A stretch of DNA of 64,000 nt from Streptomyces sp. P9-A4 (lineage in GTDB: Bacteria; Actinomycetota; Actinomycetes; Streptomycetales; Streptomycetaceae): NCBI RefSeq assembly GCF_036634195.1, contig NZ_JAZIFY010000001.1, positions 4,288,501 to 4,352,500 on the forward strand. The letters are read 5' to 3'. The notes beneath the pieces were generated by a model. The model was not told the DNA's origin. It did not search any database and saw nothing but the letters and a program-made list of their open reading frames with translations. The first letter of the stretch is position 1; every line of letters starts with the position of its first letter. Position numbers and translations under genes: made by a program. This document shows, piece after piece, positions 3,362 through 10,655 of the stretch.

Positions 3362-3540
3362 CGGGCCCGCGCCGCGCTGCTGGGCCCGCGCTGTGTTGTC
3401 GGGCCCGCGCCGCGCTTGTCGGGCCCGCACCGTGCTTGCCGGGCCCGCGCCGCGCTTGCCGGGCCCGCGCCGCGCTTGCCGGGCCCGCGCCGCGCTACCG
3501 GGCCCGCGCCGCGCTGCTGGGCCCGCACCGCGCTGCCTGG
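3362..3540. repeat. 20-bp tandem repeat array, about nine units
   Basis: A unit close to gggcccgcgccgcgcttgcc repeats with small changes between 3362 and 3540; three consecutive copies at 3441-3500 are almost identical. Each unit contains the palindrome gggccc. I see no sign that it is translated. Confidence 0.85.
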
Positions 3541-3724
3541 CCCCCCGCCCGTGCAGGCTGGCGCCGCACCCGTGCGGGCCGCGCCCCACACCGTGTGGGC
3601 AATCGTCCCGCAGGGCGGGACGGGTGGGCACACGGGACATCGCCCCCTGCCGGGCCCAGGCTCCCCGCGCCTGAAACGCCCAGCCACGGGCACGCGCACC
3701 CACAAGCCGCCCGCGCCCAACACA

Positions 3725-3823
3725 CCCGCACGCCCGAAGGGCCCCGCGCCCAACGCACCCGCACGCCCGAAGGGCCCCGCGCCCAACGCACCCACACGCC
3801 CGAAGGGCCCCGCGCCCCGTCAA
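3725..3823. repeat. 33-bp tandem repeat, three units
   Basis: Three head-to-tail 33-bp units occupy 3725-3757, 3758-3790 and 3791-3823. Units 1 and 2 are identical; unit 3 has one change near its start (cccaca for cccgca) and diverges at its end. Direct, contiguous copies without spacers exclude a CRISPR array. Although 33 is a multiple of three, the frame through it carries no credible protein and ends shortly before the start chosen for the ATPase gene. Confidence 0.9.
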
Positions 3824-3900
3824 AGCCACCGCCCCCGGCACGGTACCTTCGGCCCCCGGGCCCAAAGGTCCGCCCCGCCCCCCCCAGAGTGGAGTCAGAC

Positions 3901-6900
3901 GTGAGCGTCAGCGTCCGGACGACGACCGACGGAACCGACCCCTTCGGCACCGCCCGGCTGCGGCGGGGAGTGCTCGACGCCTGGGGCGCCTCCCCCGCCC
4001 GGTTCCGCGAGGACGCCAACGCCGAGGAGGACCTCGCTCTCGGCGGCTACCGCGACCGCCTCGTCGTCGAACTCGCCCAGAACGCCGCCGACGCCGCCCA
4101 CCGCGCCGGCGTCACCGGCCGTCTCCGCCTCACCCTGCACCCCGCCGACCACGAGGGCCCGGCGATCCTCGCCGCCGCCAACACCGGTGCCCCCCTGGAC
4201 GCGACGGGCGCCGAGTCGCTGTCGTCGCTCCGGGCCTCCGCCAAGCGCGAGCAGACCCAGGGCGCAGTCGGCCGTTTCGGCGTCGGCTTCGCCGCCGTCC
4301 TCGCCGTCACCGACGAGCCCGCCGTCCTCGGTCGCCACGGCGGTGTCCGCTGGTCCCTCGCGGAGGCCCGCGAACTCGCCGCCGGGGCCGCCGCGTACAG
4401 CCCCGGTCTCGGTGACGAACTGCGCCGCCGCGACGGCCACGTACCGCTGCTGCGGCTGCCGCTGCCCGCCGAGGGCACCGCCCCCGACGGCTACGACACC
4501 GTCGTCGTCCTCCCGCTGCGCGACACCGCCGCCCGCGACCTCGCCGAACGGCTCCTCGGCTCCGTCGACGACGCCCTCCTCCTCACCCTCCCCGGGCTCG
4601 CGGAGATCGTCGTGGAGACGGCCGAGGGCGTACGGACCCTCCGCCGCTCCGAGGACGACGGCTACGTACGGATCGACGACTCCGCCACCGGCACCCACCG
4701 CTGGCGGACCGTCTCCCACGGCGGCCCGCTCGACGCCGGACTCCTCAAGGACCGCCCGGTCGAGGAGCGCCTGCGCCCGCACTGGTCGGTCACCTGGGCC
4801 GTACCCGTGGACGGGGAGGGCGCCCCGCGCTCCCCGCGTACGACCCCGGTCGTGCACGCCCCCACACCCACCGACGAGCCCCTCGGCATCCCGGCCCTGC
4901 TGATCGCCTCGCTGCCGCTGGACACCGCGCGCCGGCACCCGGCGCCCGGTCCGCTGACCGACTTCCTGGTGCAGCGCGCCGCCGACGCGTACGCCGAACT
5001 CCTCGCCGAGTGGCAGCCGGTGACGACCGCGACGCTCGACCTCGTCCCCGGGCCGCTCGGCAAGGGCCCGCTCGACGGGGCGCTCCGCGAGGCGATCCTC
5101 GACCGGCTGCCGAGGGTCGCGTTCCTCGCGCCCGCCGCGCCCACCGAGGAACTCCCCGCCCTCCGCCCGATCGAGGCCGAGGTCGCGGAAGGCGCGGGCG
5201 CGGAGACCGTGGAGGTCCTGGCGGAGGTCTTCCCGACCCTCCTCCCCGCGGGTCTGGAGCGGCGCCCCGAACTGCGCACCCTGGGGGTCGGCCGCGTCCC
5301 CCTGACGGAGGCCGTGGACCGGCTCGCCGGGGTCGACCGGGCCCCGACCTGGTGGTGGCGCCTGTACGACTCCCTCGCCGGCGTCGACCCGGACCGGCTG
5401 TCCGGTCTCCCGGTGCCGCTGGCGGACGCGGCGGAGGGTGGCCGCACCCGTACGGCCGTCGGCCCCCGCCAGGTCCTCCTGCCGCAGGACCGGACCCCCG
5501 CCGAGCTGACCCGGCTCGGTCTGAAGGTCGCCCACCCGGAGGCCGCGCACCCGCTTCTGGAGAAGCTGGGGGCGCTGCCGGCCACGCCCCGCGCGGTCCT
5601 GACGACCCCGCAGGTACGGGCGGCGGTCGCGGCCTCCCTCGACGCGGGCGAGATCTGGGACGAGGACGCGGACGCACTGGACGCGGACGAACTCGTCGAC
5701 ACGGTCCTCGCTCTCGTCCGGGACGCGGAGCTGGACCCCGGCGACGAGCCCTGGCTCGGGGCGCTCGCGCTCCCCGACGAGGACGGCGAACTCTCCCCGG
5801 CGGGCGAGCTGGTGATGCCGGGCTCGGCGTTCGCCGCCGTGATGCGGGAGGACGAACTCGCGTACGTGGACGCCGAACTGGCCGCCCGCTGGGGCGAACA
5901 GCCCCTGGCGGCCTGCGGGGTGCTCGCCACCTTCGCCCTGGTCAGGGCGACCGATCTGCTGCTCGACCCGGACGAGGTCGAGCCGCGCGAGGGCGACTAC
6001 CCGGAGCCCGACGACGCCGGTCTCCTCGACGCGGTCGACGTGTGGTGCGAGGACGTCCTCGACCGGCTGCCGGAGTCGCCGGTGCCGCCGGTGGCGACGG
6101 AGATCGTGGCCGTACGGGACCTGGACCTGGTCGACGACGACGCATGGCCGCAGGCGCTCGCGCTCCTCGCGCAGCCGCCCCTGCGGGACGCCCTGACCCA
6201 GCCCGTACGGGTGCTGCTGCCGGACGGGACGACGGAGACGGTCCGCTCGTACACGGCGTGGTGGCTCCGGGACCACCCGGTCCTGGACGGCCGCCGCCCG
6301 GCGGGCCTCCGCGCGGCGGGCGGCGACCCGCTCCTGACCGGTCTGTACGACCCCGCCGACGCGACCGGCTTCGAGGACGAGCAGGTCCTGAGGGCGCTGG
6401 GCGTCCGCACGACGGTCCCGGCGCTCCTGGACGAGCCGGGCGGGGCGGCGGAACTCCTCGGCCGCCTGGCGGACCCGTCCCGCGAGGTGACGGCGCCGCA
6501 GCTCCACGCCCTGTACACGGCTCTGGCGGACCTGGACCCGGACCAGGTGACGCTGCCGGACGATCTGAGGGCGGTTGTGGACGGCGTCGTCGTGGTGGTC
6601 GACGCGGCGGAGGCCCTGGTGGCGGACGCCCCGGACCTCCTGCCGCTCGCGGCCGGCCTGCCGCTCCTCCCGGTGTCGCCGTCGAGGGCGGCGGACCTGG
6701 CGGAACTGTTCCAGGTCCGGCGCCTGAGCGAGACGGTCGAGGCGGAGGTCACGACGACGGGCGAGGAGCACGAGGTGCCGGAGCCGGTCCGCACCCTGCT
6801 GGGCGCGGCGACCCCGGCGACCTACGTCGAGCACGAGGAACTCAGGGCGGCGGGCACGGAACTCGACTGGCGCCGCACCTCGGACGGCGTGGTCCACGCG

Positions 6901-7032
6901 TCCACCCTGGAAGGCGTGGCGGCGGGCCTGGCCTGGGCCTCCGGCCAGTGGCCCCGCCGCTTCGAGGTGGCGGCCCTCCTGGAGGACCTGTCGAGGACGA
7001 CGGAACTGGCGAGGGACCGCTGGTTCGACTGA
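3901..7032 (+). CDS. Sacsin-like HATPase protein
   Basis: A 1043-residue acidic protein starting at GTG 3901, with GGAG six bases upstream; longer frames to the left run through repeats and are rejected. The N-terminal 250 residues look like the GHKL/Hsp90-type ATPase fold of sacsin N-terminal domains: the N-box LAQNAADAA near residue 57, a G1-like AANTGAPLD near 90, and the G2 box GRFGVGF near 123. The rest is a long alpha/beta region rich in Leu, Asp and Glu with no domain I recognise and no membrane segment. Such proteins are thought to bind ATP and act as chaperone-like or DNA/RNA-linked factors, but this family has no established role. It stands alone on its strand. Confidence 0.8.
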   Translation: MSVSVRTTTDGTDPFGTARLRRGVLDAWGASPARFREDANAEEDLALGGYRDRLVVELAQNAADAAHRAGVTGRLRLTLHPADHEGPAILAAANTGAPLDATGAESLSSLRASAKREQTQGAVGRFGVGFAAVLAVTDEPAVLGRHGGVRWSLAEARELAAGAAAYSPGLGDELRRRDGHVPLLRLPLPAEGTAPDGYDTVVVLPLRDTAARDLAERLLGSVDDALLLTLPGLAEIVVETAEGVRTLRRSEDDGYVRIDDSATGTHRWRTVSHGGPLDAGLLKDRPVEERLRPHWSVTWAVPVDGEGAPRSPRTTPVVHAPTPTDEPLGIPALLIASLPLDTARRHPAPGPLTDFLVQRAADAYAELLAEWQPVTTATLDLVPGPLGKGPLDGALREAILDRLPRVAFLAPAAPTEELPALRPIEAEVAEGAGAETVEVLAEVFPTLLPAGLERRPELRTLGVGRVPLTEAVDRLAGVDRAPTWWWRLYDSLAGVDPDRLSGLPVPLADAAEGGRTRTAVGPRQVLLPQDRTPAELTRLGLKVAHPEAAHPLLEKLGALPATPRAVLTTPQVRAAVAASLDAGEIWDEDADALDADELVDTVLALVRDAELDPGDEPWLGALALPDEDGELSPAGELVMPGSAFAAVMREDELAYVDAELAARWGEQPLAACGVLATFALVRATDLLLDPDEVEPREGDYPEPDDAGLLDAVDVWCEDVLDRLPESPVPPVATEIVAVRDLDLVDDDAWPQALALLAQPPLRDALTQPVRVLLPDGTTETVRSYTAWWLRDHPVLDGRRPAGLRAAGGDPLLTGLYDPADATGFEDEQVLRALGVRTTVPALLDEPGGAAELLGRLADPSREVTAPQLHALYTALADLDPDQVTLPDDLRAVVDGVVVVVDAAEALVADAPDLLPLAAGLPLLPVSPSRAADLAELFQVRRLSETVEAEVTTTGEEHEVPEPVRTLLGAATPATYVEHEELRAAGTELDWRRTSDGVVHASTLEGVAAGLAWASGQWPRRFEVAALLEDLSRTTELARDRWFD

Positions 7033-7168: not shown

Positions 7169-8296
7169 TCACCGGGGCCAGGTGATGTGCTGCCCGTCCG
7201 GAGTGACGGCGATCCGGAAGCGCTCCAGGCCCGGTGAGCCGTCCTGCCGCCATCGGGTGACCCGGTCCTCGATCCCGTCCCACAAGCGGTCCGGTCCGCC
7301 CTGGCGGACGATCCAGCGACCGCCGTCGCGGTGAAGGGCGGCCCACGACCCGGCGCCGACGTCGAGGACCACGTCGTCCGGTTCGCCGCCGTCGACGGAG
7401 ATCCGGACGCGCTGGGCGCGCGGCGCGGCGAGCTGGGCGACGAACCGGGCGGTCCAGTCGTCCAGGGCGTCAGGGCCGAGAGCGGTCTCGCGTTCCTCGC
7501 CGCGGGCGAGATCGGGGAGTACCCCCAAGGGCGGCGGAAGGTGGGGACGGGCCGGCATGAAGGAGACCTGACCGCCGAGGAGCCGGCCGTGGGCGGTGCC
7601 GTCGTCGCCGACGGTGAGGCGGGTGAGTTCGGAGGAGTACATCCATCCGCACACCGTGGCGAGGATCTGCCCGCCGGGTCTGGTCTGGGCGAGCCAGGCC
7701 GGGGGGATCGTCAGGACTCCGCAGGTCGCCACGATCCGGTCGTACGGTCCGCCCTCCGGGACCCCGGCGAGACCGTCCCCGACGATCAGGTGGGGCATGT
7801 GCCCGGTGGTGCCGAGGGCGATCCGGGACCGGGCGGACACCTCCTCGTCGACCTCGACCGAGGTCACGAGGCCGGCGCCGAGACGGTGGCGGAGGAGGGC
7901 GGTCGAGTAGCCCGTACCGGTGCCGACCTCCAGGACGCGCGTCCCGTCGTCCACATGGAGCTCTTCGAGCATCCGGACGACCAGGCCGGGCATGGTGCTG
8001 GAGCTGGTCGGGGCCCGGAAGATCCGGCCCTGGATGTCGCCGGGAGCGATGGTTCCGGCGATCTGGGTCACCAGCGAATCGTCGGTGTACGCCGCCGGGA
8101 GCCAGGTCGGGTCCTCGGGCATCACCGGCTCCCAGCCGGTGGGGCCGACGCCGTCCACGCGCCGGAAGTAGCCGCCGCGAAGGAACTCGTGCCGAGGGGT
8201 GTCGAGAACGGCCTGTCGCCATTGGGGCGAGCGCAGATGACCGTCGGAGGCGAGTCGGTCGGCCAGGGCCTCGCGGAGGGTTCTGTCGTCGCTCAC
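7169..8296 (-). CDS. PCMT-like methyltransferase of graspetide type
   Basis: A 375-residue SAM-dependent methyltransferase related to protein-L-isoaspartate O-methyltransferase. The N-terminal part has the PCMT-like DTPRHEFLRG segment, the SAM-binding loop VLEVGTGTGYS lies near residues 118-128, and DRIVATCGV follows. It is longer than plain PCMT (about 210 residues) and has a beta-rich C-terminal extension ending GQHITWPR, as in the methyltransferases paired with ATP-grasp peptide maturases (TIGR04188, tgmC-like, as I remember). In characterised graspetide pathways such enzymes convert an Asp of the peptide to aspartimide or isoAsp. The GTG start at 8296 overlaps the ATP-grasp stop by four bases, so the genes are translationally coupled. 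Confidence 0.85.
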   Translation of the reverse strand: MSDDRTLREALADRLASDGHLRSPQWRQAVLDTPRHEFLRGGYFRRVDGVGPTGWEPVMPEDPTWLPAAYTDDSLVTQIAGTIAPGDIQGRIFRAPTSSSTMPGLVVRMLEELHVDDGTRVLEVGTGTGYSTALLRHRLGAGLVTSVEVDEEVSARSRIALGTTGHMPHLIVGDGLAGVPEGGPYDRIVATCGVLTIPPAWLAQTRPGGQILATVCGWMYSSELTRLTVGDDGTAHGRLLGGQVSFMPARPHLPPPLGVLPDLARGEERETALGPDALDDWTARFVAQLAAPRAQRVRISVDGGEPDDVVLDVGAGSWAALHRDGGRWIVRQGGPDRLWDGIEDRVTRWRQDGSPGLERFRIAVTPDGQHITWPR

Positions 8297-8889
8297 GCTG
8301 CCTCCCGTTCCAGCAGGTCACCCATGGCCGCGACCATGGGCAGCCCGGTTTCCGGTTCCATCCATGCCCACTGGCCGGACGGGTTGCATTCGAGGAACCA
8401 CCATGCCCCGGCGTGGTCCACCGCGAAGTCGAAAGCACCGAAGACCAGCCCGAAGTGGTCCAGGTACCGGCGAAGGGCGTCGCCGATCCCGGGCGGTGGC
8501 TCGACCACGGTGTACGTGAGCCGGTCGTAGTCCGTACGCCAGTCCAGCAGCCCGGAGTCGATCCGAACGCTGAACACCTGCCGTCCGATGACGGTCACAC
8601 GGACGTCGGCGACCTTGTCGACGCGGTGCTGGAACAGGTGCGCGGTGCCGGCCACCCGTTCGTCGATCTCCGCCGCGGTGACTTCGCCGACCTCGACCGT
8701 GCAGGACACGCCGTCGATGCGGTAGAGGGGCGTGGACAGTGGTTTGTAGATGACCGGTCCGTGGGCCCGGACGAACGTGCGGGCGGCGTCGAGGTCCGAG
8801 GTGACGAGGGTCGGCGGGATCCGGAAGCCGCACTGAGCCGCAGCGGTGAGACCGGATCCGGTCGGGAGCCGGTCCGTGTGGTGGAACAC
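8293..8889 (-). CDS. Short ATP-grasp peptide ligase (N-terminal domain missing)
   Basis: A 198-residue ATP-grasp protein resembling the SAV_5884-type peptide maturases (tgmB) that make side-chain ester or amide rings in graspetides. The central and C-terminal ATP-grasp parts are present: VIYKPL with the ATP-binding lysine near residue 45, an acidic metal-binding stretch VFGAFDF near 150, and WFLECNPSGQW near 165. Family members are about 300 residues or more; the first 100 or so (the pre-ATP-grasp domain) are absent. The GTG start at 8889 has a clean GGAGG six bases upstream, and no further matching sequence precedes it. It is either a deletion derivative that acquired a start or a compact variant. 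It overlaps the downstream methyltransferase by four bases. Confidence 0.8.
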   Translation of the reverse strand: MFHHTDRLPTGSGLTAAAQCGFRIPPTLVTSDLDAARTFVRAHGPVIYKPLSTPLYRIDGVSCTVEVGEVTAAEIDERVAGTAHLFQHRVDKVADVRVTVIGRQVFSVRIDSGLLDWRTDYDRLTYTVVEPPPGIGDALRRYLDHFGLVFGAFDFAVDHAGAWWFLECNPSGQWAWMEPETGLPMVAAMGDLLEREAA

Positions 8890-8912
8890 GGTGTCCTCCA
8901 AAGATGGTTGGG

Positions 8913-9134
8913 TCAGTGCTCGATGGGCAGCAGAGCGGCCTGGATGTTGTCGGCCGAGGTCGTCCACTCGATGCCACTCGTGGGCCGGACATGAGCGATA
9001 CGGACCACGCGGCCGTCGCTGTGCAGTTCATGGGTCACGGCTGTCAGCTCGCCTTCGCCCTTGCTGGCGATGTCGCGAACTCGCGTGTGGAGCAAGGGAT
9101 GTCGCTCATAGCCGTCGTGACCGACCACGTTCAC
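8913..9134 (-). CDS. Small conserved-looking protein, 73 residues
   Basis: A 73-residue soluble protein whose GTG start at 9134 overlaps the preceding stop as GTGA; it ends 23 bp before the short ATP-grasp start. The sequence alternates hydrophobic and polar residues (RVRDIASKGEGELTAV, VVRIAHVRPTSGIEW), suggesting a small beta-rich fold. I do not recognise a named family. It has no signal peptide, membrane segment or typical graspetide core. Its place just upstream of the modifying enzymes makes it a candidate partner or substrate, but it may equally be an unrelated passenger. Confidence 0.7.
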   Translation of the reverse strand: MNVVGHDGYERHPLLHTRVRDIASKGEGELTAVTHELHSDGRVVRIAHVRPTSGIEWTTSADNIQAALLPIEH

Positions 9135-9307
9135 GTCTTCGTCTCGCGCAGCTGCTCCTCGACCTCGGCCCGCCGCATGAACTTCACCCAGCCGGCAGCC
9201 GCACGCATGCGGAGCGCCCGGCTGGGGGCGCCGGGGAGGGGGTCGGGGTAGGAGTACGTCCGGCCACTGGAACCGGGTGTCCTGCGGGGGAGTGCGGAGG
9301 TGGGCAT
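9131..9307 (-). CDS. Micro-ORF, 58 residues, first gene of the operon
   Basis: A 58-residue frame starting at ATG 9307 with an excellent ribosome site (AAAGGAG, seven bases upstream). Its TGA overlaps the next GTG in a four-base GTGA junction, arguing that both are translated. The N-terminal half is rich in Pro, Ser, Arg and Gly (RRTPGSSGRTYSYPDPLPG); the C-terminal part is a likely helix ending RRAEVEEQLRETKT. The acidic and Thr residues at the end could in principle be macrocyclised, but it does not match the precursor type I remember for this enzyme family. No homologue is recognised. Confidence 0.6.
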   Translation of the reverse strand: MPTSALPRRTPGSSGRTYSYPDPLPGAPSRALRMRAAAGWVKFMRRAEVEEQLRETKT

Positions 9308-9320
9308 GCGAGGGCTCCTT

Positions 9321-9366
9321 TCAGGCGGGGGTTACGCCCCTGGAGCGATTCCCCGGGGCCGCCTGA
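9321..9366 (-). promoter_or_regulatory. Inverted repeat abutting the operon's ribosome site
   Basis: In the leader of the leftward operon, TCAGGCGG (9321-9328) pairs with CCGCCTGA (9359-9366) around a 30-nt GC-rich loop that can fold further. The distal arm touches the AAAGGAG ribosome site of the 58-residue gene. It could be a regulatory RNA stem or part of an operator; nothing in the sequence decides between these. Confidence 0.5.
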
Positions 9367-9405
9367 CCACCTTGTCGGGTTGCTGGTGATCGCTTCCACC
9401 GTCAC

Positions 9406-9434
9406 GTCCTATAGGGCCGTCCTATATTGCGAGG
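9406..9434 (+). promoter_or_regulatory. Direct repeats GTCCTATA and leaderless -10 of the XRE gene
   Basis: GTCCTATA occurs at 9406-9413 and 9419-9426, 13 bp apart centre to centre. The second copy overlaps TATATT (9423-9428), a good -10 hexamer ending six bases before the ATG at 9435, which implies a leaderless transcript. The repeats lie between the divergent operon and the regulator gene and are the best candidate operator for that regulator. Confidence 0.6.
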
Positions 9435-10655
9435 ATGGAGCCGGAGCTGAACGTCTGGGCACACCCTGAACTGCGGGCTGCTGCAGCTGTCGAGGACTGG
9501 CCGACGCTGCTGAAGGCCTGGCGGACCCTCACCCGCAGCAGCCAGAGCAGGCTCGGGGCCCTGATCGGCCTTGCGCAGCCCGATGTGTCCGCGATCGAGA
9601 ACCGGCGCCGGGCGGTGACCTCGGTAGAGGTACGTCAGCGGATCGTCGAGGGTCTGGGCATTCCCGCCGAGGTGCTCGGAGGGTCCCGGGTTGATCTTCC
9701 CCTGCCGTCCCTGGTCCTGCCGGGGGTCGTCTCGGACGCTGCCGCAGACCGACTCGCGCGGGTGAATCAGGGTGGGCTTCGCCTGGATTCCATGTCCCTG
9801 GACGAGATGGACCGCTTACTGGCCGTGCATCGCCGGGCCGAGGACGCCCTGGGGTCGCGTGTCATGAACGGCGTGGTCGCCGCCCAGTTCGATGCCGTCT
9901 CCGGCCTCTACGACCAGGCGCGTGGACCGCTCGCGGACCGCCTGGTAAAGCTGATGGCCGAGTACGCGCAGTTCCTGGCCTGGATGGCGCAGGACCAGGA
10001 CAACGCCCCTGTCGCGCTGGGGTGGTTCGACCGTTCCTACGACTGGGCGCTGGAGTCCGGTTACGGCGACATGGCAGCGACCACCATGAGTATGAAGGCT
10101 CACCTGGCCTGGTCGAACGGGCAGGGGCGCCGGTGCGTCAGGCTCGGGGAGGCTGCCGCGTCGACGGCGGGTGCGAGCGAGGTGACGCGGGCGATGGCGC
10201 TTCAGATGGCCGGCCGGGGTCACGCTCTCGAAGGAAACGCCAAGGACGCATACCGCAGGTTGGATGAGGCCCAGCGGGTCATCGCGGACGCCACTGATGC
10301 GCCGCCCTGGCTCTACTTCTACGGGGAGTCCTGGTTCGCGGCGCAACGAGGGATGGCTGACCTTCACCTCAAGGCGTGGGGGAGCGCTGCGGAGAACCTG
10401 GTCGTCGGGCTCGCCGGCTTCGCTCCGAGCTACCGCCGGGACCGGGCTTGGTACGGCGCGTGCCTGGCGCGCGCCTATGCGGGTGCGGGGGAGAAGGAGG
10501 CCGCATTGGAGACTGCGCTGGGCATCGTCGGTGATGCCGCGGATGTCGGCCGACCGCATGCCTGGGGCGAATTGCACAAGGTGGCCGCAATGCTCATGCG
10601 AAGCGGGGCTCCTGAGGGAAGGGCCCTGTTCGATGCTCTTGCGGCGCTCGACTGA
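9435..10655 (+). CDS. XRE-family regulator with TPR-like C-terminus, TTA codon
   Basis: A 406-residue protein with a helix-turn-helix at about residues 20-75 (TRSSQSRLGALIGLAQPDVSAIENRRR), followed by roughly 300 residues of helical, Ala-rich repeats of tetratricopeptide type (for example ALEGNAKDAYRRLDEAQRV). This is the architecture of actinobacterial regulators that sense peptides or ligands through the repeat domain. Codon 128 (9816-9818) is TTA, the rare leucine codon read by the bldA tRNA in Streptomyces, so translation is probably developmentally controlled. Codon usage and base composition are less GC-extreme than in neighbouring genes, suggesting transfer. It is divergent from the four-gene methyltransferase operon and probably controls it. 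Confidence 0.85.
   Translation: MEPELNVWAHPELRAAAAVEDWPTLLKAWRTLTRSSQSRLGALIGLAQPDVSAIENRRRAVTSVEVRQRIVEGLGIPAEVLGGSRVDLPLPSLVLPGVVSDAAADRLARVNQGGLRLDSMSLDEMDRLLAVHRRAEDALGSRVMNGVVAAQFDAVSGLYDQARGPLADRLVKLMAEYAQFLAWMAQDQDNAPVALGWFDRSYDWALESGYGDMAATTMSMKAHLAWSNGQGRRCVRLGEAAASTAGASEVTRAMALQMAGRGHALEGNAKDAYRRLDEAQRVIADATDAPPWLYFYGESWFAAQRGMADLHLKAWGSAAENLVVGLAGFAPSYRRDRAWYGACLARAYAGAGEKEAALETALGIVGDAADVGRPHAWGELHKVAAMLMRSGAPEGRALFDALAALD

Follow-up and report, generated by a model that had tools for sequence, protein, structure and literature searches.

Streptomyces sp. P9-A4 carries, at positions 7169–10655 of a 64,000-nt stretch of contig NZ_JAZIFY010000001.1 (the window, to which coordinates refer), a group 13 graspetide ('graspimiditide') operon, orf58-orf73-tgmA-tgmB-tgmC, which is most likely a dead copy inactivated by a single deletion of approximately 660 bp (probability about 0.85). 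The available parts of the literature give a good description of graspetides of group 13 and their PIMT partners (PMC13001092, PMC10787088). An original prediction, made from the sequence alone, had read the locus as either a compact, undescribed variant of such a system or a decayed copy. The decayed copy was favoured by comparison with syntenic relatives, which have a full-length ATP-grasp enzyme and a standard precursor, while the compact new system was rejected as no listed relative has the same junction.

Alignment of the window with four related loci (L110, L111, L034 and L113) revealed one gap of 662 columns, equivalent to 662–663 bp in L110 and L111. On the left, the precursor gene tgmA is kept up to codon 11 (VFHHTDRLPTG); on the right, the ligase gene tgmB resumes at codon 130 (SGLTAAAQCGF; P0029 numbering), and the dinucleotide TC is common to both sides of the join (8854–8858). 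This removes 92 of the 103 residues of the precursor and the first 129 of the 316 residues of the ATP-grasp enzyme. The remaining frame (8293–8889, minus strand; GTG start, 198 residues) is open and in frame with tgmB, and encodes the 11 leader residues followed by TgmB from residue 130. It starts at tgmA's own GTG (tgmA remnant, 8857–8889, minus strand) and is served by the tgmA ribosome-binding site, a GGAGG at 8895–8899 inside the 23-bp gap (8912–8890) that separates orf73 from the fusion frame. The deletion, running from tgmA codon 12 to tgmB codon 130, leaves this single 198-codon in-frame fusion.

The fusion frame matched TIGR04187 with 256.1 bits, under the cut-off of 350, and over profile positions 127–312 of 312 only; positions 1–126, which belong to the full-length ATP-grasp enzyme of a group 13 cluster, are absent. 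When compared with the six solved relatives listed, the fragment aligned from chain residue 125 (9bou), 129 (5ig9) or 136 (5ig8) and, for the other three, from residues 152–169. The next gene, tgmC (7169–8296, minus strand), overlaps the fusion frame by 4 bp and encodes a full-length PIMT-like O-methyltransferase of 375 residues, as found in group 13 clusters (TIGR04188, 448.2 bits against a cut-off of 380; profile positions 1–363 of 363). The enzyme assignments of the original prediction were borne out by these matches, partial for the ligase and full for the methyltransferase, and the gene coordinates, 4-bp overlaps and 23-bp gap that it gave are all present in the sequence.

Two relatives, L110 (genome G268) and L111 (G307), have an intact operon at the same chromosomal site, in the order P-type ATPase gene, helix–turn–helix (HTH) gene, orf58, orf73, tgmA (103 residues), full-length tgmB, tgmC and sacsin-like gene. 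The match to the HTH gene was good in L110 (74–82 %) and weak in L111 (30–36 %). A P-type ATPase gene likewise lies upstream of the tgm genes in L043, where the order is identical. The same site in Streptomyces gardneri (L033) still has orf58-orf73, flanked by the HTH and sacsin-like genes, and showed no tgm match in the 12.2 kb covered. Judged by this synteny, the P9-A4 operon is a descendant of an intact tgmA-tgmB-tgmC operon at the same locus.

Group 13 clusters encode beside the ligase a precursor with a leader and a Thr/Asp-containing core, of which only codons 1–11 are left in P9-A4. A search of the P9-A4 genome with the L034 precursor as query matched the start of the fusion protein to precursor residues 1–15 (E=0.71) and found no convincing second precursor (best E=0.48). 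The TIGR04186 precursor search gave no match, and neither did its control. A PWG motif, which all 10 close precursors compared have at residue 23 and which is also present in two precursors of a more distant subgroup (L046 and L053), falls in the deleted part, beyond the 11 kept residues. In the accessible sections of PMC13003496, the recognition sequence in ThfA is inferred to be the RPFG tetrapeptide, and ThfB is leader-dependent. By our own reading, PWG is the probable counterpart of RPFG. With the core, the probable recognition motif of the leader and the ligase N-terminal part all missing, the cross-linked peptide is presumably no longer made, and the ligase fragment and TgmC may be idle or still undecayed.

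To place the junction among other short or broken copies, ATP-grasp relatives were compared by length and alignment. Among the best 120 of 1114 relatives, 114 had 306–321 residues and six were shorter; of the two shorter ones that were read, P0135 has an internal deletion and P0043 begins inside the N-terminal part, on a 1.6-kb contig. A genus search of 392 genomes with the short ATP-grasp protein found matches in 139, and among the 150 matches listed only P9-A4 and G237 (L120) aligned from before residue 30. G237 has unrelated sequence upstream. With the full-length P0029 as query, 8 of the 150 matches listed, P9-A4 included, started after residue 40. These comprised two frame-shifted copies (G085:C124 and G022:C57), G237, and matches in G099, G096, G007 and G375 that were left out of the locus-by-locus reading. 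At least three further listed matches, also left out of that reading, end early (G368:C21, G104 and G265). The P9-A4 junction was seen in no other genome among the matches listed for either query.

Five other broken tgm copies were read (L114, L115, L116, L117 and L120), all with different breakpoints or frame-shifts. L114 and L117 keep the precursor and have a frame-shifted tgmB. L115, L116 and L120 are without the ligase N-terminal part and a detectable precursor, with TgmB breakpoints at approximately 115, 151 and 117–123, respectively. As no two of these three share a breakpoint or upstream sequence, and none shares them with the window, a recurrent short ATP-grasp architecture was rejected, and the broken copies look like independent losses. 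Since the other broken copies differ and S. gardneri shows no tgm match, tgm gene loss is recurrent and the P9-A4 junction, as far as seen, private. The locus is also a caution against taking short ATP-grasp genes for new compact systems. The original prediction had pictured decay as a single truncated copy with a decaying frame among full-length homologues. The full-length ligase and standard precursor were found in the syntenic relatives, but truncation is not confined to P9-A4 (L115, L116 and L120 are truncated as well) and frame decay is not seen, the frames being open with omega of ~0.14 and 0.26.

Codon evolution on the P9-A4 branch was analysed with a branch model of eight sequences (183 tgmB codons and 371 tgmC codons; custom script, FastTree topology fixed for each gene); the two gene trees disagree on the nearest relatives of the window. 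Here the evidence weighs against a simple pseudogene. Omega on the window branch did not differ significantly from background for the tgmB part (0.136 versus 0.099, P=0.43) or for tgmC (0.258 versus 0.154, P=0.08), and omega=1 was rejected on this branch for both (P=1.5e-6 and P=5e-5, respectively). The tgmC value was the highest among the four branches tested; with the three intact relatives as foreground, omega was 0.088–0.143 for tgmB and 0.166–0.202 for tgmC. These values are averaged over the whole branch, and a good deal of it may be older than the deletion. The frame, start codon and ribosome-binding site have also been kept, which fits a young deletion, though retained function would fit as well. 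The window branch is still constrained, and therefore either the loss is recent or something at the locus is still selected.

Retained function could take the form of a working minimal variant, in which the ligase, activated by its fused leader, would act on a peptide from another locus before TgmC does. The in-frame fusion, the intact start signals and the codon constraint are all compatible with such a variant, and MvdD and MvdC were constitutively active when a leader was fused to their N-termini in the laboratory, as given in the available portion of PMC9826346. However, in those constructs the ligase gains a leader plus a 30-residue linker (same portion of PMC9826346), whereas the P9-A4 frame has lost both the PWG motif and the pre-ATP-grasp part. 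No precursor was detected elsewhere in the genome, and the only other listed match to align from before residue 30 has unrelated sequence upstream. A minimal variant is thus very unlikely. An assembly or sequencing artefact, with the strain really possessing an intact operon, is highly improbable. The locus is known from one assembly of the strain, an intact operon is the rule in the close relatives read, and a protein that is identical to orf58 over its first 48 residues and then diverges (P0149) implies that near relatives may vary here. Nevertheless, that assembly consists of two contigs and is 99.94 % complete, the locus is inside a 6.8-Mb contig, and the junction keeps the frame and has 2-bp microhomology.

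The two small genes directly upstream of the ligase frame, orf58 (9131–9307, minus strand; 58 residues, the first gene of the operon) and orf73 (8913–9134, minus strand; 73 residues, overlapping orf58 by 4 bp), could by size and position have taken the place of tgmA as a precursor of a new type. Both were found beside a real tgmA (L034, L043, L060, L110, L111 and L113) and also in loci without a detected tgm gene, and orf73 is predicted to be a folded small beta-barrel conserved over most of its length, not a leader and core. A substitute precursor is therefore extremely improbable. Since the pair accompanies intact precursors and also stands ahead of radical S-adenosylmethionine (SAM) and lasso-type operons, neither orf58 nor orf73 is likely to be the substrate. 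The unfamiliar substrate of the original prediction is not supported, the pair occurring both in loci that have a real precursor and in loci that lack a detected graspetide enzyme. It was also considered whether orf73 supplies the missing N-terminal part of the ligase, which was rejected because orf73 coexists with full-length tgmB in syntenic loci. Deletion and decay of the tgm genes remain the preferred explanation of the locus.

The orf58-orf73 pair is part of a wider, little-described module and the most interesting part of the locus. Neither protein matched an NCBIfam or Pfam family at E≤1. Homologues of both in Streptomyces (28 listed for orf73 and 18 for orf58; 47 orf73 loci) show that they are more than chance open reading frames (ORFs). 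NG86 estimates of dN/dS were 0.10–0.29 for orf73 (11 non-independent pairs, L113 being the same as L035 here) and 0.29–0.58 for orf58 (five pairs). In some loci orf73 is fused to an orf58-like N-terminus. A divergent regulator stands opposite in 39 of the 47 loci. Peptide-modifying operons of at least three types, unrelated in chemistry, begin with orf73, in many cases together with orf58, and face differing regulators. This raises the possibility, which we regard as doubtful, that orf58-orf73 is a portable two-protein adaptor of unrelated Streptomyces peptide-modifying operons (graspetide, AmcB-type radical SAM, albusnodin-type macrolactam cyclase and others), placed at the start of each, facing an XRE or GntR regulator that can be exchanged, and linking regulator to peptide system, and that in P9-A4 it outlived its own graspetide operon. 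In the preferred explanation of the locus, the module is presumably kept independently of the peptide system. The available parts of the graspetide and regulator literature contained no description of either the pair or the leader–ligase fusion. The module could help to locate new peptide clusters and could pose a testable question of operon control.

A regulator of 406 residues (9435–10655, plus strand) is divergent to the operon. As predicted, it is of the XRE/TPR type and contains an in-frame TTA codon (9816–9818, plus strand; Leu 128). It belongs to the NsdA family (NF053720, 138.3 bits against a cut-off of 75), and orthologues with 81 % identity stand divergent to orf58-orf73 in L036 and L055. 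The same codon is TTA in L036, while L055 has a TTA elsewhere in the gene; the regulator is possibly bldA-dependent through this codon. A direct repeat, GTCCTATA-N5-GTCCTATA (9406–9426, plus strand), is a candidate operator, to which the regulator may bind and so control itself and orf58-orf73. The pattern had one site in the genome at ≤2 mismatches, and the backwards control pattern also had one match. In L036 (with one mismatch) and in L055, the GTCCTATA direct repeat likewise lies ahead of the regulator gene.

Several further observations were made at related loci. The P9-A4 genome contains, outside the window, a second orf58-orf73 pair (L145, G000:C1:4158713–4158907) upstream of a sugar-transfer-type ATP-grasp gene that is 94 % identical to that of L063; on the other side of the pair is a regulator match with 28 % identity to the L033 regulator. 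In L055 (1542–3289) orf58-orf73 is followed by a radical-SAM gene resembling the AmcB-type gene of L039, and then by a precursor-like ORF ending in repeated FDNRPTWDN motifs. A tgmC-like sequence directly follows orf73, without tgmB, in L042 (6001–7177), and in L049 (6001–10102) an AmcB-like radical-SAM gene adjoins orf73, with only the tail end of a tgmC-like gene further along, an arrangement suggestive of tgm gene loss at this locus as well. P0149 (55 residues, on a 243-kb contig) is identical to orf58 over its first 48 residues and then diverges, which suggests that the end of orf58 has undergone recombination or an insertion or deletion in a close strain. The counterpart in L110 (3641–4739) of a 360-residue regulator-like protein of L111 spans two frames, due to a frameshift or sequencing error. 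Adjoining the locus in the window is a large rightward ORF (3436–7032) with a sub-threshold Pfam sacsin match (27.9 bits against a cut-off of 32.8), counterparts of which also flank the locus in L033, L110 and L111.

Among known systems, standalone recognition elements of ribosomally synthesized and post-translationally modified peptides (RiPPs), which are PqqD-like, and LPL-family helper proteins resemble the orf58-orf73 module as small conserved proteins in RiPP operons. The PqqD fold is a winged helix, whereas orf73 is predicted to be mostly beta and has no family match. XRE-DUF397 pairs of Streptomyces similarly place an XRE regulator beside a small conserved protein; the parts available describe them as pleiotropic regulators (PMC10364602) and report DUF397/DUF5753 regulator pairs in the vicinity of graspetide clusters of groups 11 and 13 (PMC13097080). 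In contrast, orf58 and orf73 have no DUF397 match, are divergent to an NsdA-like regulator and head a biosynthetic operon. Truncated, catalytically inactive ATP-grasp proteins of branch 8 keep both N-terminal domains, according to the accessible text of PMC8939145, whereas the P9-A4 fragment lost its N-terminal part. The locus shares an ATP-grasp ligase and a PIMT-like methyltransferase with the group 13 graspimiditides (fuscimiditide ThfA-ThfB-ThfM, amycolimiditide, albusimiditide and SsfA(BM)), and its intact relatives, like these, have precursor, ligase and methyltransferase genes together. It differs in having a leader–ligase fusion in place of the precursor core and the ATP-grasp N-terminal part. 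Fusions of the LP-MvdD type, as presented in the available portion of PMC9826346, likewise combine leader residues and an ATP-grasp ligase in a single chain, with the leader first, but P9-A4 has 11 leader residues without a recognition motif, and the ligase that follows is incomplete, with no pre-ATP-grasp part. The P9-A4 graspetide locus is most likely a case of ordinary decay, yet it provides a clean natural example of a leader-to-ligase fusion made by deletion.

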